Assembly (NCBI RefSeq): GCF_963675165.1
Contig: NC_087391.1
Location: 887,001-951,000 of the forward strand
Source of the DNA: Halichondria panicea
Taxonomy: Eukaryota; Porifera; Demospongiae; Suberitida; Halichondriidae
Direction of reading: 5' to 3'
DNA: 64,000 nucleotides
Shown here piece by piece: positions 12,143-57,139 of the stretch (position 1 is the first letter of the stretch; each line of letters opens with the position of its first letter). The position numbers and the translations under genes were made by a program. Below the pieces are notes generated by a model, which worked only from the letters and a program-made list of their open reading frames with translations, was not told the DNA's origin and searched no databases.

Positions 12143-13998
12143 CTAGGTTATCAAAAGACTGACTAGGTCCTCAAAAAAATCATTTTCCGGAGTTCCTTCG
12201 CGACTACACCCCAGTTTAGTAGTGCTCGTCAGAGGGCTACATGTAGTTTCGTTTAAATGTCCATTTTGAGTGCTCACAATTCCTTCCATTGAGCCGGAGA
12301 ATTTCCCATTCTTGCATGGGGAGTCTTTGCAGGAGGTATCTATGCAGGGGGAATCTGTCTGTGCTGCCTTTGAAGTCAGGGGTTCTATGGAGATGATGGG
12401 TTTAGATACGAGCGGTGTACTAGAAGATGGTTGTGCTTTGGTCATTATGGGTACTGTAATTACTGTAGGTCCGTGCGAGACAGAAGTGAGCGAATGAGTA
12501 GTTGGGGCTGGTGTGAAGAGGGGTAAGTTCGAGGAGGGTGAGAGTATTGGACTATTTGAGGGGTCTGCCGAGAGGTCAAAGCCATACAAAGTAGGATCAA
12601 CTTTGGTGAAATCAATTGGACTAAGTGTAGAGGATTCGTCTTCGCTGTCCGTATCAGAGAAGGGGCTGGTGGTCAGCCCTGAGGGGGGGAGGAGATCCAG
12701 AGGAGCATGGATTCCATTCACTAGCGGTAATAACGTTCCATTGATGGATGGGGTCACACCATTGATGGGTTTACAAGTGTCGATTTTCTCAATATCTTCT
12801 AAATTGTCGCTACAAAGTCTCTTAGTTTTCGGACTTGAGAACTCCTCTTCTGAAAGTGAATGCTTTCCCAGACAACCTCTTAAAACAGTTTTTTCTTCAC
12901 CACCTTCGACAGCATCACCAGCCTCACAAGCCCCGCCTTCTTCCCTCACAACACCCACACTCTCAACCAGTCTACCAAAGTCAGCTGTATCGACGGAATC
13001 ATCCAGTACTCCGGTGGACGCAACCAGAGGGCTAAGATCCGATAGCAACGATCCGAGCGTCTTCACCTTGATGGGCGTGGGAGGGCTTTGTGGGGAGAGA
13101 GAGAGACCGCCATCTTTGAAAGTATTACAGATAAAAGACTCGACGATTTCGTCTTGTTCTTCCATGAGTGGTAACGGAGGCTCATCACTCTTCATCATGT
13201 GATATTGTAGTGTCCGCAGAGCATTATTAATGAGGACAAAACGTAGTAGGCGTGGTTCCATGCCTGGTCGAAGCTGCTCCTTCTGAAGTTTCCCAACGGT
13301 GAGCTCGAACAGATTTCTTTGTTCATACTCGACATCAATGTGCTCCAACGGCGATGTGAAAGTTTTCTTGACAACACAGTGCATCATAGTGCTGTACGTG
13401 GTGTGTGCATGGGGTATGGGATAAGGGTAATATAGAGGGTATGGGATAAGGGTAATATAGAGGGTATGGGATAAGGGTAAGTATAGAGTATGAGGATAAG
13501 GGTAAGTATAGAGTATGGGGATAAGGGTAAGTATAGAGGTACGGGATAAGGGTAAGTATAGAGGTACGGGATAAGGGTAAGTATAGAGGGTGTGGGATAA
13601 GGGTAAGTATAGAGGGTGTGGGATAAGGGTAAGTATAGAGGTATGGGATAAGGGTAAGTATAGAGGTATGGGATAAGGGTAAGTATAGAGTATGGGGATA
13701 AGGGTAAGTATAGAGGGTGTGGGATAAGGGTAAGTATAGAGGGTATGAGATAAGGGTAAGTATAGAGGTATGGGATAAGGGTAAGTATAGAGGTATGGGG
13801 ATAATGGTGTGTATGTGGTAGTTTGTTTTTGTATCAGACAGACGTGTACACACGTTAAGTGGCATTGTGTATATTGAGTAATTACACGCAGTAGACAGTA
13901 CAATATGATTACTAGGAGGCTCAGTTGCCAGGACACAAGAATGCAGATAATTACCTGTCTTGTGGTACCACAGCTATGTCTCGGTGTACCTCAACCAT
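12143..13998 (-). CDS. SERTA-domain protein (SERTAD/CDCA4-like)
   Basis: Two coding exons, 13955-13998 and 12143-13391, give 430 residues. The first exon (MVEVHRDIAVVPQD plus AG) joins the second in phase, so the protein starts in the small exon. A SERTA domain lies at about residues 36-80: RNLFELTVGKL followed by EPRLLRFVLINNALRTLQ, matching the family pattern of a leucine-rich helix then VLINNxLRxIQ. The rest is low-complexity, Ser/Thr/Pro-rich and acidic, ending in ENDFFEDLVSLLIT, a hydrophobic-acidic tail reminiscent of SERTAD activation domains. SERTA proteins are nuclear cofactors of E2F and PP2A-linked cell-cycle control; that role here is inferred. The 563-bp coding intron is mostly minisatellite. 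A stretch with an AG acceptor just upstream (14003-14004) implies further 5' UTR exons. Confidence 0.85.
13413..13803. repeat. minisatellite, about 15 copies of a 25-26 bp unit
   Basis: Unit on the plus strand reads about GGTATGGGATAAGGGTAAGTATAGA. I count 15 copies plus a partial one, and most contain GGTAAGT. It lies in the SERTA coding intron. The minus strand happens to stay open through the array, but the predicted Tyr/Pro/Leu repeat has no domain and splicing removes it. Confidence 0.95.
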
Positions 13999-20971: not shown

Positions 20972-23959
20972 TTAACTCAACTCCACACAAGTGGGTGTGT
21001 TATTGACTAATATGAATGCAATATCACTAGTGTCCAGTACAGTACCATGATGAGGGGCTGTGATCACGTAGTGCTTCTCTTGACCCAGTCCAACATATCT
21101 CTCATTCCTAGCAGGCAGCTTGCGATACAATCCAAGGACAAGGTTTTTCTTGTCCAGCTGGATGTTGAACAAGTCTTGGAACGTCTTGCCGACATACTCT
21201 TCTGAATTGAGGGGAACCCCCACAATCTGACAGGTTGCCTTCGTGCCTGTACGCTGGATCAGGTCTTCCACAAGGTACAAGGTGCCTGGACTGTGGAATG
21301 CAGAACTTGTCACAGAGTCCATCATAGAAACTGAAAATGCTTCTCCACAAGCAAACGGTTGAGTTTTGTAGATTCTCTCGTCTGGTTCGTCTTCATCTCC
21401 AAAGTCGAGGAACTGCACATTAGATTCCTGTCGAAGGTCAGCAATAATCTGGACTTGCTGTGTGGCATTTTTCTTGAGGTACTTCTGGATGCTCAGACTG
21501 CAGAGGACCACTTCTTTGTCATTGATGGCTGGTTCGTCACTGTCGGTTGAGAGCATGGTCGTGATGATGCACACACTGCAAGAGTTGATGGAAGCAGCTT
21601 CAAGGTTTTTAAAATACAGTGGACACCCTTCAACCACATACACTTCAGGAAAGTTTTGTAAGAACGGCCATTCACGTTTCAGAAAAGTTTTCTTGCTCAC
21701 AATGACAACAGGCTGTATAGACTCTCTTGAAATACTTTTAGCTCTGAGAGGAATGAGGAAATTTTGCAGCCCAAGTAGTGGAGACTTTTTATCAGCAAAC
21801 ACGCACACAACAATGTGATTTTCCAGGCTTGGTATTCCTTCTGGGCTCTTCATAAATGCATTCGAATTAAGAGTGACTTCTTCCAGTTCAATTGGCTCAC
21901 GACTGTAGGATTCACTCGCCTCTTCATCATCATCGTGGTCGATTGTGAATGAAACTGGACAGTGTGATGGCCGCTTAGAAAATGTACCTTGCCGCTTAGA
22001 AAATATGCCTGTAGGTACAGAAGCTTCATCAAATTCCACCAACTCAGTTCCCTCCAATCTACCGGTAGTGACCACTTTAGTTAAAACTGGACAATTGCAA
22101 TTACGACGAGAGACCCTTCGGATAAGATATTTCAGTTCTATATGGTCAACTAATTTCAAATTTTTATCGCAAGTCTCACAGTAGCTACTCACAACGGACA
22201 CATGTTTGACATCCTGCCCAGCAAAGTACCCTCGAGTTCCAAGGAGACCACTTTGAATAGTGATCTCAGAATTAGGAGGGTTAATGTCAAATTTGCGGAG
22301 CTTGCCTTCAGGAGATTCAAATGCTAGCAGAATTAGTCCAAATTGATTATAGCAAATGTGAGCGGCTTCTTGAAAGTTTTTTCCTTCAAAACTGGATGAG
22401 AAATGAGTTGCATATATTTCATTGGAAGCGCCCATTGTGTAATCTTCTTTCCAAGCATTCGGGCCTTCAAAGGATTTGAGAGCTGAAAAATCAGACGTGT
22501 AGAAGAGGTTGGCAATTAGAGTGGAGAATCCGGGACACAGACAACTCTGAGCCAGTAATCCAAGCTTCAGCTCGTTCAAACAGACAGCAATGTCTCTACC
22601 AGGATTCCACCCTTCAATGTTCCTGACCTGTTGTTTACTCAAATTAAGAAGAAGCTGTGTTATCACTGGTATCTTAGTAGTTACGTTCTTGATAGACACC
22701 AATCGCAGAAGGTTACCATTGTCTTCCTCCTGTGGATTGTTTGTGTACTTGTCTGCAAGAATGAAAACAGCAGAAGAACTCAATAGCTTGCTGTTTAGAA
22801 GATCACTTCTGTCCAATACAGACCCGGCAATATACTGAACTCGAGTGTAGAAGAAACGGAACACATTCCGCAGTTTCCTACTAGGCCGAGTTGGGTGGAG
22901 GAAAAGGACATGTGTGTTTGAGTCTCCTCGATCAGGGTGCAGGAAGTCCTTGAGAAATGCTTGAGCGGAAAATGCGGTGATGTGGCCACAAACAATCACA
23001 TGACGTGGGACCCGTGATCTATCAAAACTGGAATATTGTCTATTGAAATGAAAGTATTGAAGTACATCACTTATGAGAGGCAGTAGTGCAGCAAAGAAAA
23101 CCAATCCAATAATAATGTACCCAAACATAAAGCCTCGGCCAAAAGCTGTTTTGGGGGTTATATCGCCATACCCAACAGTAGTCACGGTAACGAGAATGTA
23201 GTATCCATACGAGAAGATATTATGTTCGGGAGCATTGTGGTTATTGATCCAAGGATCTCCAGTGTACTCTAAAAGATGAACTATTCCAGCACCGAAAAAA
23301 ACGAGGGTCAAAAAATAAATGGCAAGAGCAATAAAATCGAGGAAGTTCTGTGACTTAATCCAAGGAATGAATCTGAAAACTGTAATCAGCTGAGTTAGCC
23401 AGAAGAAGCGAGCAGATCTTAGCCCCAACCAATCCACACCCAGCGCCACAGACACAAAGATATGAGGGAGAGTCAGTACATCAATTATTGTGTAAAAGTC
23501 AAACCAGTGCCAGACAATATTGTTAGAAGCGAGTAACCGAGCAATGGAAAAGCATAGGAGTTCCAGAACAATGCATAGTTCAACTATTCTTGTTGGTTCT
23601 TGAGTGATGCTGTAGCAATACTCAACCAAAGGAGGTTCAATACTTCTGTATAAGGCTAGGATTATAAACGTAGTGTTGCATGCAAATGTCACTAGAATCA
23701 AGGTCTTGCTTAAGATGGAGTCCCCAGACAGAAGCAAACGAACGGTCTCGTTGAACTTTCTGTTAGCCTGTTGCCGTTTTGTGTCTATTGACTTTTGTCG
23801 ACACTTCTTTGTGATTCTGGTGAGTCCATAAGTAAACAAACTGAGGCCTAGATACGTAATGTAGAGGATGACGAATACAACGATGTAGATCCACCACACC
23901 TCTTGACCAGGAAACGGATCGCCACGTTCACTGCAACGAGTGCTTGTATTGTTGGTCAT
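20972..23959 (-). CDS. BK (Slo1)-type calcium- and voltage-gated potassium channel, copy 1, intronless
   Basis: One uninterrupted 995-residue frame. The N-terminal S0 segment (about 22-42) is a BK hallmark. S1 to S6 follow, with the selectivity filter TVGYGD at 261-266. RCK1 begins RHVIVCGHITAF near 319 and retains the two calcium-site aspartates in FLKDFLHPDRGD (338 and 343, equivalent to BK D362 and D367). RCK2 contains a calcium-bowl-like acidic loop GDEDEPDERIY at 854-864, aligned with QDDDDDPDTELY of BK. In S4, WLGLRSARFFW keeps arginines equivalent to R207 and R210 but has W187 where BK has R213. The BK M513 position (LFSMRSF) reads LFYTSDF, while the E535 position (SNEIY) is kept. Absence of introns contrasts with all neighbours. 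Tetrameric plasma-membrane channel by homology; calcium gating is likely, voltage gating may be weakened. Confidence 0.93.
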   Translation of the reverse strand: MTNNTSTRCSERGDPFPGQEVWWIYIVVFVILYITYLGLSLFTYGLTRITKKCRQKSIDTKRQQANRKFNETVRLLLSGDSILSKTLILVTFACNTTFIILALYRSIEPPLVEYCYSITQEPTRIVELCIVLELLCFSIARLLASNNIVWHWFDFYTIIDVLTLPHIFVSVALGVDWLGLRSARFFWLTQLITVFRFIPWIKSQNFLDFIALAIYFLTLVFFGAGIVHLLEYTGDPWINNHNAPEHNIFSYGYYILVTVTTVGYGDITPKTAFGRGFMFGYIIIGLVFFAALLPLISDVLQYFHFNRQYSSFDRSRVPRHVIVCGHITAFSAQAFLKDFLHPDRGDSNTHVLFLHPTRPSRKLRNVFRFFYTRVQYIAGSVLDRSDLLNSKLLSSSAVFILADKYTNNPQEEDNGNLLRLVSIKNVTTKIPVITQLLLNLSKQQVRNIEGWNPGRDIAVCLNELKLGLLAQSCLCPGFSTLIANLFYTSDFSALKSFEGPNAWKEDYTMGASNEIYATHFSSSFEGKNFQEAAHICYNQFGLILLAFESPEGKLRKFDINPPNSEITIQSGLLGTRGYFAGQDVKHVSVVSSYCETCDKNLKLVDHIELKYLIRRVSRRNCNCPVLTKVVTTGRLEGTELVEFDEASVPTGIFSKRQGTFSKRPSHCPVSFTIDHDDDEEASESYSREPIELEEVTLNSNAFMKSPEGIPSLENHIVVCVFADKKSPLLGLQNFLIPLRAKSISRESIQPVVIVSKKTFLKREWPFLQNFPEVYVVEGCPLYFKNLEAASINSCSVCIITTMLSTDSDEPAINDKEVVLCSLSIQKYLKKNATQQVQIIADLRQESNVQFLDFGDEDEPDERIYKTQPFACGEAFSVSMMDSVTSSAFHSPGTLYLVEDLIQRTGTKATCQIVGVPLNSEEYVGKTFQDLFNIQLDKKNLVLGLYRKLPARNERYVGLGQEKHYVITAPHHGTVLDTSDIAFILVNNTPTCVELS

Positions 23960-24239
23960 CTTGAAGCATGTACCTGCATGTATACTGTTACATAAATATG
24001 GTATTTAGATTATGTAACAAGTATAATTATGCATCAATTCAAAATTGATCGAGTGGGCATAATTATCGGTGCAAAAACATAATTATGTCATGCTAGTAAA
24101 ATTTATGGTTTGAAGCACACAAAAAACCCTAATTGCACCTCAGATAACCATTCCTCAACAAATTTTCCGGAGGGGGACCCCAAGACCCCCCTCAATTAAA
24201 CGTTTCCCCCTCCCAGCTAAGAATCCTGTCTGATATATA

Positions 24240-24425
24240 CTACTGTATAGCTGGTAACTTTTGTACGGCAAAATATTCGTGGTTTTCGTGGTTGAAGCTT
24301 TGACCACGAATATATGACCCACAAATGAAGCAACCTTGCCTACCTTTACCTGCAGTGCAAGCAGCAACCACGAAAGTATTATCCACGAAGTGAATAAATA
24401 CTGCTCAACCATGAATGTTTGGCCC
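24240..24425. repeat. degenerate foldback rich in TTCGTGG/CCACGAA
   Basis: Several inverted copies of TTCGTGG (ATTCGTGGTTTTCGTGGTTG near 24270 against CCACGAA near 24305, 24370 and 24385). It looks like a decayed MITE related in style to the segments at 28840-29070 and 40845-41045. Confidence 0.45.
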
Positions 24426-24657
24426 CCCCCCCTGAAAATTCCCCGCTATACGGTAATCTAGATCTGTTGAGAGTAGCTCGCCAGAGCTATTAAAAGCTAG
24501 TGAGGTATTAAGTCATATCACACTACTAATAATAGTTCAGGAGGCAAGAGCCTCCTCTGCCTAGTTGCTAGCTAGTTACGCCCCTGTGAATGATTCCTTG
24601 TTTGGCAAGAGGTAAGTAGTACTCTTGGCGACCTGTTTACCACACCCTATAATTGTC

Positions 24658-24951
24658 TAGACTCGCAAGCCGTCACTGTTGCAGGCGAACAGTAGACTGG
24701 TCAAACTCCGTGTTGAGACTTGTGTAACGTTTGCCACGATATTTGTGGCAACTAACCGCATGCGGTTACCACAAGATCAATGATAGTGACGTTTCACTAG
24801 AAAACTCTACATATCACATGCAGTATACTGACGTCACGAAAACCGCAGCCACTTAAAATACTTTCTGATATGCTGACTGTGCAACACAAGTCTCAACACG
24901 GAGTTTGACCAGTCTACTGTTCGCCTGCAACAGTGACGGCTTGCGAGTCTA
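24658..24951. mobile_element. long-TIR foldback element with 9-bp target duplication (MULE-like)
   Basis: 294 bp. The outer 68 bp at each end, starting TAGACTCGCAAGCCGTCACT, are perfect inverted repeats. It is flanked on both sides by ATAATTGTC (24649-24657 and 24952-24960), a perfect 9-bp direct repeat. Long TIRs with 9-bp target duplications are typical of Mutator-like elements; with no transposase it would be a non-autonomous copy. Confidence 0.88.
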
Positions 24952-25590
24952 ATAATTGTCTTGTGGGATACATTTTAACTTACACGTTTAACTTAGGTTA
25001 TTATTAAACTAATCTACCGTCTATATTTGGACACTACATACGAATATCTAGTTTCTTCGCATACGGTGCAACAAATACATATCCAACTGAACACTGACTG
25101 CATAGCTAAAAGACAATAACAGATACCAAGCTTTACTAAAGATATTTATAGCCTAGGTGTGGTGAATCAATATTAATTAAGTCAAATGCGCAGCTACATT
25201 TAGTTATAGCTGAAATTCCACAGGTTTTAATACAGGGCGATTTCAATTCCAGCACACGTACCCCAGTACACGACTGTAGTACTACTATAGATCTAAATAA
25301 CACTTACCAGGCTGTCAGAAAGGCGGACAAGTGTTTTGTCTTGACCAAGTGACCTTTTGTAACTAATTAGATGATCTCTATAACAATATTCATTGGTTCC
25401 CACATCTGAGCCAAGCTGGAGAAACCCCAAAATATTACGAAGTAACAAACACAGCACATTAAATCATAGATCTATGAACAAAAAAACAAGCAATTAAAAT
25501 AATGATTGTACATTAAACGTACAATAGTCTTTTGCGTGCACACACAATGTAGCTAACTGTCTGCATAATTATACGAGGGGGCAAGTCATC

Positions 25591-28539
25591 TTAACTTAGT
25601 TCTACATGTATTGTTTTGTTTACCAACACAAATGCAATGTCGCTTGAATTCAGCAAACTTTCACGATTGGGCGATGTGATCACATAGTGTTTCCCTTGGC
25701 TTTCTTCACTGCTGGAAATTGAAGCACCACTGTTGACGTACACCTCTTGAGTGCCTGGTAGCTTGCGATACAGTCCGAGAACGAGGTTGTTCTTGTCCAG
25801 CTGGAGGTTGTACAAATCTTGGAACGTCTTGCCGTCATACTCTTCTGAATTGAGGGGAACGCCCACAATCTGACAGGTTGCCTTGGTGCCCGTACACTGG
25901 ATCAGGTCTTCCACAAGGTACAAGGTGCCTGGACTGTGGAATGCAGAACTTGTCACAGAGTCCATCATAGAAACTGAAAATGCTTCTCCACACGCAAATG
26001 GTTGAGCTTTGTAGATTCTCTCGTCTGGTTCGTCTTCATCTCCAAAGTCGAGGAACTGCACATTAGATTCCTGTCGAAGGTCAGCAATTATCTGGACTTG
26101 ACGTGTGGCATTTCTCTTGAGGTACTTTTGAATGCTGAGACTGCAGAGGACCACTTCTTTGTCATTGATGGCTGGTTCGTCACTGTCAGCTGAGAGCGTG
26201 GTGGTGATGATGCACACACTGCAAGAGTCGATGGAGGCAGCTTGAAGATTTTGAATTCGCAATGGGCATCCTTCAACCACATACACTTCAGGAAAGCTTC
26301 GTATGAGCGGCCATTCACGTTTTAAGAATGGTCTTTGACTGACAATGACAACAGATTTCATAGATTGCCTTGGAATATTCTTGTTTCTGAGTGGAAAGAG
26401 AAAGTTGTGCAGGCCTAAAAGTGGCGACTTGTCATCAGCAAATACACAGAGCACAATGTGATTTTCTAAATTGGGCATAGATTCTGGATCTTTTTCGATT
26501 ATATCGAAATCAGATTGGAGGAGTGAATCTTGCAGCTTTTTAGGCTCGTGGATGTAGGTACTGAATTGATCGTCAAGTTCTTCGAAATTATCGTCCGTTG
26601 AAGGTGTAAAACTGACTACCATGTAGCTCTTGTGTCTGTTCAGGGGGTACTTTCTCGGTAGAGAAGCAACTTCTTTAAGGGGTTCATAACCACTACATAG
26701 CTTCGGATTCGCTGCGATCACATTATGCATGCAATTTGTCATATCTCCATTACATACTTCACAGTAGGAATTGACAACAGCCACTTGACGAATATCCTGT
26801 CCAATGAAATAGCCACGAGTGCCATGCAATCCACTTTTCACAACGATGCTGACATCTGAAGGATTTACATGAAATTTACGGAGTTTACCATTTGGTGACT
26901 CAAATGCTAACAAGATAAGTTTGAGCTTATTGTAACAAATGTGAGCAGTTTCTTGAAAGTTTTTTCCTTCAAAACTGGGAGAAAAATGTGTGGTGTAAAT
27001 CTCGTTTGAAGCACCCTCGATGTAATCTTCTTTCCAAGCATTCAGACCTTCAAATGATGTGAGAGCTGGGAAATCAGATGTGTAGAAGAGGTTGGCAATT
27101 AGTGTAGAGAATCCAGGACACAGACAGCTCTGAGCCAGTAATCCAAGCTTCAGCTCGTTCAAACAGACAGCAATGTCACTACCAGGATTCCATCCTTCAA
27201 TGTTCTTGACCTGTTTCTTGCTCGAGCCAAGAAGAAGCTGTATTATCACTGGGATTTCTGTAGTAGTGTTCTTGATAGACACCAATCGCAGAAGGTTGCC
27301 GTTATCTTCCTCCAATGGATTGTTTGTGTACTTGTCTGCAAGAATGAAAACAGCAGAGGAACTAAATAGCTTGCTCTTTTGGAGGTGTTTACTGTTAAGA
27401 ACAGACCCAGCAATATACTGAACTCGAGTGTAGTACGATCTGAGAACATTTTTCAAGTCTGTTTTTGGCCAAGTTGGATGGAGGAAAAGGACATGTGTGT
27501 TTGAGTCTCCTCGATCAGGGTGCAGGAAGTCCTTGAGAAACGCCTGAGCAGTAAATGCAGTGATGTGGCCACAAACAATCACATGACGTGAAGCTTTCTT
27601 TTTGTCAAACTTTGCATACAGATTTTTAGCTTTAATGCTAGATGCCACATCACTCATTATTGGGAGGAGTGCAGCAAAGAAAGCCAAGCCGATAACAATG
27701 TATACCACCATGAATACCTGTCCGAATGCTGTTTTGGGCGTTATATCACCATATCCCACAGTAGTGATGGTAACAATGATGAAATATGCGTAGCTTAGGA
27801 ACGCAGTGGCATTTTTAGCATCGTGAGGTTCCCAAGGATCATTCGAGTACTCCAATAGATGAAAAATTCCAGTTCCAAACAAGAGTAACACAAAGAAGTA
27901 CACACCAATAGAAAGGATATCAATGTTATCCTGAGATCGAATTCGAGGAATGAATCTGAACACTGTAATCAACTGAGTTAGCCAGAAGAAGCGAGCAGAT
28001 CTTAGCCCCAACCAATCCACACCCAGCGTCACGGACACAAAGATATGAGGGAGAGTCAATATATCAGTGATGGTGTAAATATCCAGCCAATATCCAGCTA
28101 TGTTATTTGTAGCAAACAGTCGAATTACAGCGAAGCCAATGAGTTCAAGAACAACCAAAAGTTCGATGATTTTCTCAGGTGACTCAGAAAGCTCAAAACA
28201 GTACTCTACTAGATGAGGAACATATGCACGATACACAGTCAGTATCAAGAAGATGATATTGCAGGCTAACGTTGAAGTAATCAAGATTTTACTAGGGATG
28301 GTGTCACCAGAAATGAGCAGTTTGAAATAGCTATTGAATTCCTTTAATCTCTTTGATTTTTGTTGTCCATGAGATGGTCGTTTGTATTTGGTGAAATAGT
28401 AGAGGCCGTATACAGAAGAACTGAGACCGAAGCCCACTGCGTAGAGTAACACAGATGCTACAATATACACCCACCAAAGCTCGTATCCTGACAACACTCT
28501 ACCAATTTCATCGCAGACAATAGTCCGATTGACTAGCAT
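25591..28539 (-). CDS. BK (Slo1)-type calcium- and voltage-gated potassium channel, copy 2, intronless
   Basis: One uninterrupted 982-residue frame, clear paralog of the upstream copy. It has S0 (ELWWVYIVASVLLYAVGF), S1-S6, filter TVGYGD, RCK1 with FLKDFLHPDRGD, and RCK2 with the acidic loop GDEDEPDERIY. S4 again reads WLGLRSARFFW, so the R213-equivalent tryptophan is shared by both copies. The RCK1-RCK2 linker (residues after about 600) differs strongly from copy 1 in sequence, while the calcium-bowl region is almost identical at protein and DNA level. Next to the linker, copy 1 reads GSVLDRSDLLNSK and copy 2 GSVLNSKHLQKSK. It is intronless too, so the duplication probably followed intron loss or a retro-copy. 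Transcribed away from ACTR10. Confidence 0.93.
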   Translation of the reverse strand: MLVNRTIVCDEIGRVLSGYELWWVYIVASVLLYAVGFGLSSSVYGLYYFTKYKRPSHGQQKSKRLKEFNSYFKLLISGDTIPSKILITSTLACNIIFLILTVYRAYVPHLVEYCFELSESPEKIIELLVVLELIGFAVIRLFATNNIAGYWLDIYTITDILTLPHIFVSVTLGVDWLGLRSARFFWLTQLITVFRFIPRIRSQDNIDILSIGVYFFVLLLFGTGIFHLLEYSNDPWEPHDAKNATAFLSYAYFIIVTITTVGYGDITPKTAFGQVFMVVYIVIGLAFFAALLPIMSDVASSIKAKNLYAKFDKKKASRHVIVCGHITAFTAQAFLKDFLHPDRGDSNTHVLFLHPTWPKTDLKNVLRSYYTRVQYIAGSVLNSKHLQKSKLFSSSAVFILADKYTNNPLEEDNGNLLRLVSIKNTTTEIPVIIQLLLGSSKKQVKNIEGWNPGSDIAVCLNELKLGLLAQSCLCPGFSTLIANLFYTSDFPALTSFEGLNAWKEDYIEGASNEIYTTHFSPSFEGKNFQETAHICYNKLKLILLAFESPNGKLRKFHVNPSDVSIVVKSGLHGTRGYFIGQDIRQVAVVNSYCEVCNGDMTNCMHNVIAANPKLCSGYEPLKEVASLPRKYPLNRHKSYMVVSFTPSTDDNFEELDDQFSTYIHEPKKLQDSLLQSDFDIIEKDPESMPNLENHIVLCVFADDKSPLLGLHNFLFPLRNKNIPRQSMKSVVIVSQRPFLKREWPLIRSFPEVYVVEGCPLRIQNLQAASIDSCSVCIITTTLSADSDEPAINDKEVVLCSLSIQKYLKRNATRQVQIIADLRQESNVQFLDFGDEDEPDERIYKAQPFACGEAFSVSMMDSVTSSAFHSPGTLYLVEDLIQCTGTKATCQIVGVPLNSEEYDGKTFQDLYNLQLDKNNLVLGLYRKLPGTQEVYVNSGASISSSEESQGKHYVITSPNRESLLNSSDIAFVLVNKTIHVELS

Positions 28540-54707: not shown

Positions 54708-54845
54708 GTTTGCCTTCTAATGAGAAAAAACACTACAGAGGTTTTCAGGTTGCTTGTCACAAGCCTTTGTGAAGGTGAAGTGCGCATGCACATAGATTAA
54801 TTAAATTATATTTGAACTTACAGTGCTGAAGGATTGCATGTCAAC

Positions 54846-55812
54846 ATGCCTAACCCGTACTCAAATGATCTTCGTTGGAGAGTAATTTGGTTGTATTTAG
54901 CTAAGAATCTTTCAATAGCAGAAGTATCTGAGCTCGTTTGTGTCAGTGAAAGAGCTATTAAACGATATATTACACAGTTTAATCAAACTGGTGATGTTCA
55001 TCCAGCAACTCATCAACATGGACCTCCTAAGCTCTTAGGCGAATTTGAGCAACTTGTCCTGCTAAGATTGATCACTGAAAACACAGGAATCTACCTGTAT
55101 GAGATACAGACCAAACTAGTGGCACGGTTTGGTGTGACTGTAAGTGTAGCAACCATTTGCAGAACATTGAAGTTTATGGGGTGCTCTAGACAAGTGCATC
55201 AAACATATCCCTATCAGACGCAGTGAAGAACTCAGAGCAAAGTTTATGGCTGAAATCTCCATGTATGACCCTTCTATGCTAATTTGGCTAGATGAAACTG
55301 GATGTGATAGACGTAATAGCACAAGAAAATGGGGGTATAGCATACGAGGTATACCACCAAAAGATCACCAAATACTTGTGAGAGGAACTCGATACTCCTG
55401 CATACCTATCATATCTATGAAAGGAATACATGATATCCATATTATTACCGGAACAATGGATAGTGCGAGGTTTGAAAACTTTCTTACTACAACTCTTCTA
55501 CCTATATTACAACCATTTAACTATCTTAACCCCTGTTCCGTTGTTATAATGGACAATGCTTCAGTCCATCACGTAGCAGAAGTTGAAGACTTAATTGAGA
55601 ATCAATTCGGTGCTCGATTAGTGTTTTTGCCTCCTTATTCTCCAGACCTAAACCCAGCAGAGGAAGTGTTTAGTGAAGTAAAAAGCATAATGAAACAAAA
55701 CAATGCTTTATTTCAAGTCACTACTAATCCAAGGTTTCTGTTAGCTACGGCATTCAGCATGGTCACCAAGGAGGACTGCTTAAAGTTCATTACACATTCT
55801 GGATATTTATAA
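54846..55812 (+). pseudogene. mariner/IS630-type DDE transposase, frameshifted
   Basis: Starts MPNPYSNDLRWRVIWLYL, a paired-type HTH region (SIAEVSELVCVSERAIKRYI), then the DDE_3 domain: first Asp in IWLDETGCDRR, second in VVIMDNASVHH, and the third acidic residue in PYSPDLNPAEEVFSEVK, about 35 residues after the second. The frame shifts near 55195-55200 (after MGCSRQ), consistent with a single extra base; the downstream frame resumes with RRSEELRAKF. All three catalytic positions remain visible, so decay looks recent. Residues after the DDE core end HSGYL. The earlier TTG in this frame is not used as a start. Confidence 0.88.
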
Positions 55813-55886
55813 TTATCATACAGGACAACAATTATTAATACGTACAACTATTATACATGCACTGAAATTCTGTTAACTGGAAAAAA

Positions 55887-56836
55887 TTAAGAAACAGTTT
55901 TGTTCAGATGATGAAGGAGACTCATGATCGACTCTTTCTCGGAGCAAAATTCACTTTCAGACAAAATTCCTGTGCTCTTCAAATTTTGAAGTTCTGAAAG
56001 CTGTCTATACAGTTTTGATCGACCTTCAATGACCTTTGCAGGACTACTACCAACTGCACTTGTCTCTTTTGGAGAGAGAGCAGAAGTTATGGCTGTTGCA
56101 GCTTCACTCATCAAATGAGATACAGAGTTTTGACTTTTCTTGCGATAAGGAGTTCCTCCTCCAGACCTAGCAAACATTGTTGTATTTGGGGGATCATCCA
56201 ACCCCTCGTGTAAACCACCAGTAATCATTTCTCCCCAAATGCGATACTGCATCAATGTGAATTTCGACCCATACTTTTCTTTTAGATTTTCCACAGTCTC
56301 CTGGACCTTGTCTTCTTTACTGGTGTCACTTTTCTTTTTCTTTTTAACACTGTCTTCATTTATAGATGCTGTTTTTTTCCTCTTATTTCCTCTTGCTGTG
56401 GTAACTGGAATGCATTCTTTAAGACCATCACACCATAGTGTTAAACTACAATTGGGCTTGTTTAAATCAGACAAAACTTCATACACGTCTTCTTCACTAC
56501 GACTCCGTATCACAGTATAGATCCACGTACGTAGCCAACATCAAAGTCTTCCTGTGTAATATCTTGACACAGTTGGCTTCTTATTACTATCTTCAGATCA
56601 TCACATGAACAAACTAGAGCAGTATCGATATTACGAAGGGTAAAAGATCGACACACCTTACTATCATCCTTACACACTGCTCTCAAAACAATTTTGTCCA
56701 GTTTGGTAGACTTTTCATTCGACAAAGGGTGACCTTGGCATCCTGACAGTGGAGTAACCCTAACTCTACCGCTGTTTACTGTCACACTGTGTTGTACTAA
56801 GTTTCTAATAGCACTTTGACTAAGATTCATCATCAC
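55887..56836 (-). pseudogene. transposon companion protein of unknown family, frameshifted
   Basis: Convergent to the transposase and inside the same inverted repeats. Two overlapping frames, 56836-56510 and 56513-55887, read as one protein of about 315 residues broken near 56513 by a shift consistent with two extra bases. Visible parts: an N-terminal region MMMNLSQSAIRNLVQ, a middle lysine-rich segment (RKKTASINEDSVKKKKKS), a conserved-looking block TLMQYRIWGEMITGGLHEG followed by DDPPNTTMF, and a C-terminal coiled-coil-like stretch (LYRQLSELQNLKSTGILSE). No catalytic motif I can name. Its position suggests a role in transposition or host interaction; that is inference. Confidence 0.7.
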
Positions 56837-57139
56837 TCATTCATTTTCCAAGCTAGCCTAGCCACGTGTCTCAGTGGAGTCCAAAGTTCATACAGTAGAA
56901 TAATTGATACGCATGCGCGGCTCTATGTGACAAGCAACCTGAAAACCTCTGTACACATTCCACAATTCCGAATCCATCATCTGATGCGCATGCGCATCAC
57001 ATCAAAGTCGCTCTCTACTAGTACCAATCGTAGTAATTTGGAACAGGGTCATTAACTATACAAATTTAAATAATGAGGTCATAATGATTAATGATTAAAA
57101 ATGAATAATGAGCTGAGATGGAATGCAACAGAACACCGG

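Follow-up and report, generated by a model that had tools for sequence, protein, structure and literature searches.

A two-gene IS630/Tc1-type transposon lineage in the genome of the sponge Halichondria panicea

We analysed a 64,000-bp stretch of DNA (the window) from the sponge Halichondria panicea, C15:887001-951000 of a 131.5-Mb genome in 39 contigs, and describe a transposon within it that carries a second gene beside its transposase. All copy counts given below come from this single genome. A repeat search of the window delimited a 2,218-bp element in a unit at positions 54734-56953, with TA (54734-54735 and 56952-56953) and perfect terminal inverted repeats (TIRs) of 26 bp at both ends. 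The left arm (54736-54761, + strand) and the right arm (56926-56951, - strand) were complementary at 26/26 positions, or 28 nt counting the TA. Two convergent genes lay between the TIRs, their stop codons separated by a 74-bp spacer (55813-55886). The transposase gene (open reading frame 1, ORF1; 54846-55812, + strand) ran in two frames with one frameshift near 55.2 kb. Its first frame piece matched HTH_23 (5.7e-8) and HTH_29 (1.3e-6) in a Pfam scan, giving an N-terminal helix-turn-helix at 54867-55013 (residues 12-60 of the ORF at 54834), and its second piece matched the catalytic domain DDE_3 (PF13358, 5.4e-27; 55279-55704), with 35 residues from the second D to the E. The second gene (ORF2; 55887-56833, - strand) likewise occupied two frames, with one frameshift near 56.51 kb.

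A sister copy on contig C1 was intact, with both genes open from Met to stop and encoding a transposase of 321 amino acids and an ORF2 protein of 314. The window transposase pieces corresponded to sister residues 1-122 and 112-321 and the ORF2 pieces to residues 1-107 and 106-314; each window gene thus has a single frameshift. The two copies were 98.4% identical over 2,215 aligned positions, and the window copy therefore decayed recently. Compared with a copy on C7, identity spanned TA|TIR through TIR|TA, ending at the left TIR on that side, and the flanks were unrelated. The first-pass annotation of the window had described the 26-bp TIRs with flanking TA, a recognisable DDE transposase, an opposite-strand protein of about 315 residues and one frameshift per gene, all of which held, and its suggestion that the second gene was probably intact until recently and moved with the element was supported. 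The window element is one inactivated copy within a two-gene IS630/Tc1-type transposon lineage.

The transposase of the intact sister matched the NCBIfam IS630 model NF033545 above its cut-off (9.3e-45). With a TA duplication, short TIRs and an N-terminal helix-turn-helix joined to a DDE_3/IS630-type transposase, the element has the features of the IS630-Tc1-mariner group. TA also stood at the TIR ends in many aligned copy pairs, where the adjoining bases varied, unlike the TTAA target site of Kolobok. Mariner proper is defined by a DD34D triad. The catalytic pattern was measured in 10 of the 14 families defined below and ended in E in all 10. The stretch from the second D to this E was 35 residues long in four families and 34 in six (two single copies were off by one). 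On these sequence features the transposase is IS630/Tc1-like and not mariner proper; the annotation's assignment to the Tc1/mariner type was right at the level of the group and wrong in the name mariner, given the 35-residue spacing in the window. A script found an inverted pair of at least 16 bp at 24 of 39 stretches, not every one of which was verified (the pair at S12 was an outer repeat), one of 11 bp at S15, and none at the other 14 (S05, S06, S09, S13, S16-S19, S23-S25, S29, S32, S38). The intact transposase had no match among solved structures (PDB) at E up to 0.1.

Aligned ORF2 sequences formed one protein family, with the following parts in order: a weakly PB1-like N-terminal region (56424-56698 in the window, limits approximate and split by the frameshift), a basic stretch resembling a nuclear localization signal (56331-56384), a W...PP motif and a SHOCT-type C-terminus, all on the - strand. 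The basic stretch, with at least four K/R per eight residues, was found in 12/14 families, three of which had no upstream border in the same piece. The central motif (56172-56297) had an invariant W and PP across a 13-sequence alignment and two helices in a structural model. Two helices were also modelled for the C-terminal hairpin (55890-56045), where SHOCT matched 10/11 sequences (best 9.4e-7). A score of 26.1 bits, against a Pfam cut-off of 27, was read for the single sequence that had a full table. The model of the window ORF2 fragment was poor overall (mean predicted local distance difference test, pLDDT, 55.6), with higher values in the helices of the central motif (block means 68-84) and over most of the SHOCT region (81-85). 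Searched against PDB, the SHOCT-region profile reached E 0.069 at best, and the ORF2 fragment and the full profile gave weak matches only. We read a match of the central motif to a PDB helix of 8-oxoguanine glycosylase (E 4.5e-4, 31 residues) as a short helical resemblance. Stray Pfam matches were S6PP_C (1.2e-4) and Exog_C (0.074), each in 1/9 sequences.

We searched the whole genome for both proteins and grouped matches with E up to 0.001 into clusters; eight transposase rows and two ORF2 rows above that value were dropped and repeat places were left out. One transposase search scored 121/195 candidates, so the resulting counts are lower bounds: at least 94 transposase clusters and at least 83 ORF2 clusters. 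A convergent ORF2 lay within 2.5 kb of 67/94 transposase clusters, where a simple density estimate predicts about 0.4 pairs by chance, and another four had an ORF2 nearby in a different arrangement, so that 67 of 71 transposase clusters with a nearby ORF2 were convergent. The gap between the two matches was 51-298 bp in 48/60 pairs, and elements were mostly 2.2-2.8 kb long. The sample least biased toward ORF2 was the set of 30 loci chosen for the best matches to the transposase, and ORF2 sequence was present in all 30 (one retained only its last 52 positions), a departure from the single gene of textbook Tc1/mariner elements. Two other Tc1-like transposases (L079 and L080) had no ORF2 by eye or in the ORF2 searches, a weak control as the script found no TIRs around them. 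Further DDE_3 matches were seen at C8:2829580, C12:2990723, C1:6748316 and C1:5705861.

Loci with enough of both genes (n = 37) fell into 14 families at a transposase distance threshold of 25%. Between family representatives, identity was 35-70% for the transposase and 20-46% for ORF2, and the two distance matrices were correlated (Mantel r 0.78), with none of 9999 permutations as high. Maximum-likelihood trees of the two genes shared 6/11 internal splits, compared with a mean of 0.23 under label shuffling (0/2000 shuffles reached 6). Judged from these alignments and trees, the two genes have been co-inherited and have co-diverged through at least 14 families. The median ratio of nonsynonymous to synonymous substitution rates (dN/dS) between families was 0.44 for ORF2 (47/91 pairs calculable) and 0.28 for the transposase (35/91), values that are rough because dS was saturated (median above 2). 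As a further sign of constraint, a GT-AG intron preceded the ORF2 frame in one family with the same borders in 5/5 copies. An ATG-starting upstream exon was read in three of these copies; in the other two the last 120 bases were seen and no start was found.

Many copies have moved as a whole. Among 45 fetched elements, 41 matched both genes and four matched ORF2 alone, and in 14 of the 45, spread over several families, each gene formed one uninterrupted frame (at least 311/317 profile positions covered for the transposase; for ORF2, 193-296 of 296 positions in frames 248-350 codons long). We compared copies in pairs sharing at least 700 bp at 88% identity or more, and in many of the pairs listed the identity reached TA|TIR, at one end or at both, and stopped there, the flanks being unrelated. 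C1:12902772-12905255 and C8:3917987-3920468, both single-frame two-gene copies, were 99.5% identical over 2,484 bp from TIR to TIR; this identity means that two-gene copies moved recently. C1:14212910-14215348 and C4:5258177-5260603 were 99.2% identical over 2,439 bp. The whole two-gene unit is mobile. At C7:5211452-5214905, an element sat inside a larger perfect inverted repeat, which spanned about 3.45 kb in all, had arms of 60 bp or more and may be another transposon or a palindrome. A segment of at least 2.4 kb was present twice on C5, at C5:5630824-5633231 and C5:5743597-5746031 (97% identity); it contained an ORF2 fragment and no transposase match, and was possibly carried by another repeat.

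Copies sharing the ends of the window element also kept its second gene. The genome had 21 occurrences of the TIR core TACAGAGGTTTTCAGGTT with TA, spread over 13 loci (12 besides the window), and none of a reversed control pattern; ORF2 was present at 12/13 of these loci. The thirteenth, a single end at C1:4490341, showed neither gene by eye and had no match in the genome searches for the transposase or ORF2. The TIR of a second family, TACAGCAGATTGCAGTTAAC, gave 10 matches at five loci, with both genes at all five. The TIR of a third family, TACAGGGTTTTGCAGAAT, was far more frequent, with 159 exact matches genome-wide. The 100 matches listed comprised 52 ends without a partner and 24 pairs that faced each other. 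Of these pairs, 22 spanned 151-897 bp, 16 of them 387-407 bp (e.g. C1:4037701-4038106), and the remaining two (2,504 and 4,034 bp) both enclosed matches to both genes. Large sets of short derivatives are common in Tc1/mariner families, and we class the short TACAGGGTTTTGCAGAAT copies, by their ends, as a derivative family of the miniature inverted-repeat transposable element (MITE) type that uses the ends of one two-gene family.

We propose that ORF2 is probably an accessory protein, encoded by the element itself, that is needed for transposition or strongly helps it. The dozens of related copies with the same pair of genes suggest that it has long been a working part of the element and not a passenger. 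Putative promoters near each end would allow convergent transcription to express both genes from one compact unit. The basic stretch would bring the ORF2 protein into the nucleus, its PB1-like head and SHOCT tail would let it form oligomers, and the protein would keep the transposase and both ends in one complex, acting in synapsis or end recognition. A comparable role is ascribed to the second protein of PIF/Harbinger elements. A bolder form of this proposal, which we put forward tentatively and with more doubt than confidence, is that these elements make up a separate animal branch of the IS630-Tc1-mariner group whose transposition always requires two proteins. ORF2 would then be a multimerising PB1/SHOCT scaffold on which the transposase depends and which assembles the synaptic complex.

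Several observations weigh against the accessory-protein explanation. The PB1 assignment is weak, with Pfam matches in 2/12 sequences (best E 0.002), and a profile of the region retrieved designed TIM barrels from PDB and no PB1 structure. Pfam scans recognised no DNA-binding domain in ORF2, nor any enzymatic domain consistently. Of the transposase clusters, 23/94 had no ORF2 match within 2.5 kb. Contrary to the premise of the annotation, the third family above, with the TIR CAGGGTTTTGCAGAAT, occurred mostly as short copies, 22/24 of its listed pairs leaving no room for the genes. An in-frame ATG preceded both matches in only four of the 14 single-frame copies; in the others the start may lie in an upstream exon or have been lost. 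The two gene trees had one well-supported topological conflict, among the three closest families. Within families, 17 ORF2 pairs, not independent of one another, had dS above 0.05; their median dN/dS was 0.57, mildly below 1 as expected of decaying copies. Only two transposase pairs passed the same dS limit, with values near 1. In the family of C1:7001837-7006373, ORF2 was often several-fold more diverged than the transposase (e.g. dS 0.109 vs 0.022), possibly by exchange between subfamilies or through misaligned columns.

The strongest alternative, which we consider rather unlikely, is that ORF2 belongs to the element and acts on expression, regulating the transposase or countering host silencing from outside the transposition complex. 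Conservation, co-divergence with the transposase, the basic stretch and the domains that probably serve oligomerisation fit a regulator as well as they fit a cofactor. Regulators encoded by transposons exist in the VANC proteins of plant Mutator-like elements and TnpA of Spm. In the brown alga Ectocarpus, a Sola1 element encodes on its other strand an accessory protein that modifies DNA (PMC12477816). Against a regulator, Pfam scans of ORF2 returned no chromatin-related or known regulator domain. The evidence fits both roles; we prefer one in the reaction itself because most transposase-bearing copies keep ORF2 and because two-protein cut-and-paste systems are known in other superfamilies (PMC4482050).

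Two further readings deny ORF2 any present use, and we regard both as improbable. In the first, ORF2 is a captured host gene or passenger that does nothing for the element. Transposons do capture host genes, and 14/83 ORF2 clusters had no transposase match within 2.5 kb; by coordinates, three of these 14 (two on C9, one on C14) lay 4-7 kb from a transposase cluster, and the other 11 may include a host copy. A passenger would hardly accompany the transposase through 14 families and diverge in step with it. The annotation had named two findings that would speak against a two-gene transposon, namely that most copies with the window TIRs lack ORF2 or that ORF2 was captured only here. Neither was seen, given the 12/13 loci above and the homologues that diverged together with the transposase beside them. 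In the second reading, put forward with equally little conviction, the two genes do form an element, its copies are relics that depend for their movement on proteins from other sources, and ORF2 no longer matters. Copies of 1,350 bp at C3:2400243-2401592 and C12:2903091-2904440 were 100% identical with different flanks, and both lacked most of the transposase and kept an interrupted ORF2; with most of their own transposase gone, their very recent movement is most simply put down to a transposase supplied by another source. The short copies with the ends of one family are numerous as well. Set against these are the single-frame two-gene copies in several families and the near-identical C1 and C8 copies (12.90 and 3.92 Mb) that match from TIR to TIR. 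Chance nesting, with an unrelated mobile element inserted in a mariner element and the TIRs belonging to one of the two, draws on the general fact that nested insertions occur and can practically be dismissed, since the same tightly spaced convergent layout recurs at dozens of loci with different TIRs; together, the genome-wide convergent pairs, the 14 families and their co-divergence rule out that the pair arose by chance, by insertion of one element into another or by a recent capture confined to this locus.

Other features of the window and genome were noted in passing. Two adjoining Slo-type potassium channel genes (window 20972-28539, - strand) had long uninterrupted frames of 995 and 982 amino acids, in keeping with an animal genome, and a minisatellite of 25-bp units (13413-13808) lay within a long open frame. 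The sole COX1 match found, at C1:5280527-5280718, was a nuclear fragment of the mitochondrial gene with two TGA codons, and the assembly may have no mitochondrial contig.

Searches outside this genome returned no relatives. Viral contigs searched with two alignments of ORF2 and a single transposase piece from the window gave none, nor did prokaryotic genome contigs searched with two ORF2 alignments, and tblastn of ORF2 found nothing in phages. An exact scan of viral contigs with a degenerate motif gave five loci, none with an ORF2 or transposase profile match. As none of these collections is eukaryotic, the results say little about other animals.

Extra genes do occur in related and unrelated transposons, which we compare here with the available parts of the papers cited. 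TBE transposons of the ciliate Oxytricha encode a 42-kD Tc1/mariner transposase and extra genes under purifying selection, including a 22-kD gene in reversed orientation, recalling the opposite strand of ORF2; they differ in having three genes, one of them a 57-kD zinc-finger/kinase, where the sponge elements have two, the accessory proteins being compared by description only (PMC4724952). In Paramecium, Anchois, Sardine and Thon have IS630/Tc1 transposases (DD35E in Sardine and Thon); Anchois is 3.6 kb long with TIRs of about 22 nt and two extra hypothetical ORFs, and Sardine has up to three further ORFs (PMC3464196). These Paramecium elements, again compared by description only, differ in their larger number of ORFs and in the tyrosine recombinase of Sardine and Thon (PMC3464196). 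A 4.4-kb autonomous Tc1/mariner family is mentioned in Ectocarpus (PMC12477816).

Outside Tc1/mariner, PHIS elements (PIF/Harbinger, ISL2EU) similarly combine a DDE transposase with a second protein in cut-and-paste transposition, and the function of their additional ORFs was called unknown (PMC4482050). They belong to other transposase groups with other target sites, and their second protein, where a domain is known, has Myb/SANT or YqaJ (PMC4482050), neither of which was among the 12 Pfam families matched by nine ORF2 sequences at E up to 1. KolobokP has an opposite-strand second gene in another superfamily, with a Kolobok transposase, a His-Me finger nuclease and long terminal direct repeats (PMC9587614). 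A 2-kb element in a Lambdina fiscellaria baculovirus also has two genes between inverted repeats, with nearest relatives in pea aphid; by description, it differs in its 118-nt repeats and FLYWCH-type zinc finger, and the available part of the paper names no superfamily and mentions no TA duplication (PMC4447894). Intruder (DD38E) shares the IS630-Tc1-mariner group and a short element, and has one ORF in 1.5-1.7 kb where the sponge elements have a second conserved gene and are mostly 2.2-2.8 kb (PMC7731502). A literature search at the level of titles and abstract openings found no two-gene Tc1/mariner element named in an animal; Repbase, which it did not cover, may list such families. Extra genes in Tc1/mariner elements are thus already published for ciliates, and the animal case was not found in the literature searched.

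To our knowledge, Tc1/mariner is the model of a self-sufficient transposon, with one gene and no host factor strictly needed. If transposition by two proteins is confirmed, the single-protein cut-and-paste reaction on which the portability of Tc1/mariner between species is based would fail for this branch. In these scans the ORF2 family had no dedicated Pfam model, and proteins related to it may be listed among the uncharacterised host genes of animals. With its diversity, recent activity and retained second gene, this branch would be a natural experiment in why some cut-and-paste transposons need a partner and others do not, and the complete sister copy and several single-frame copies make that question directly testable.

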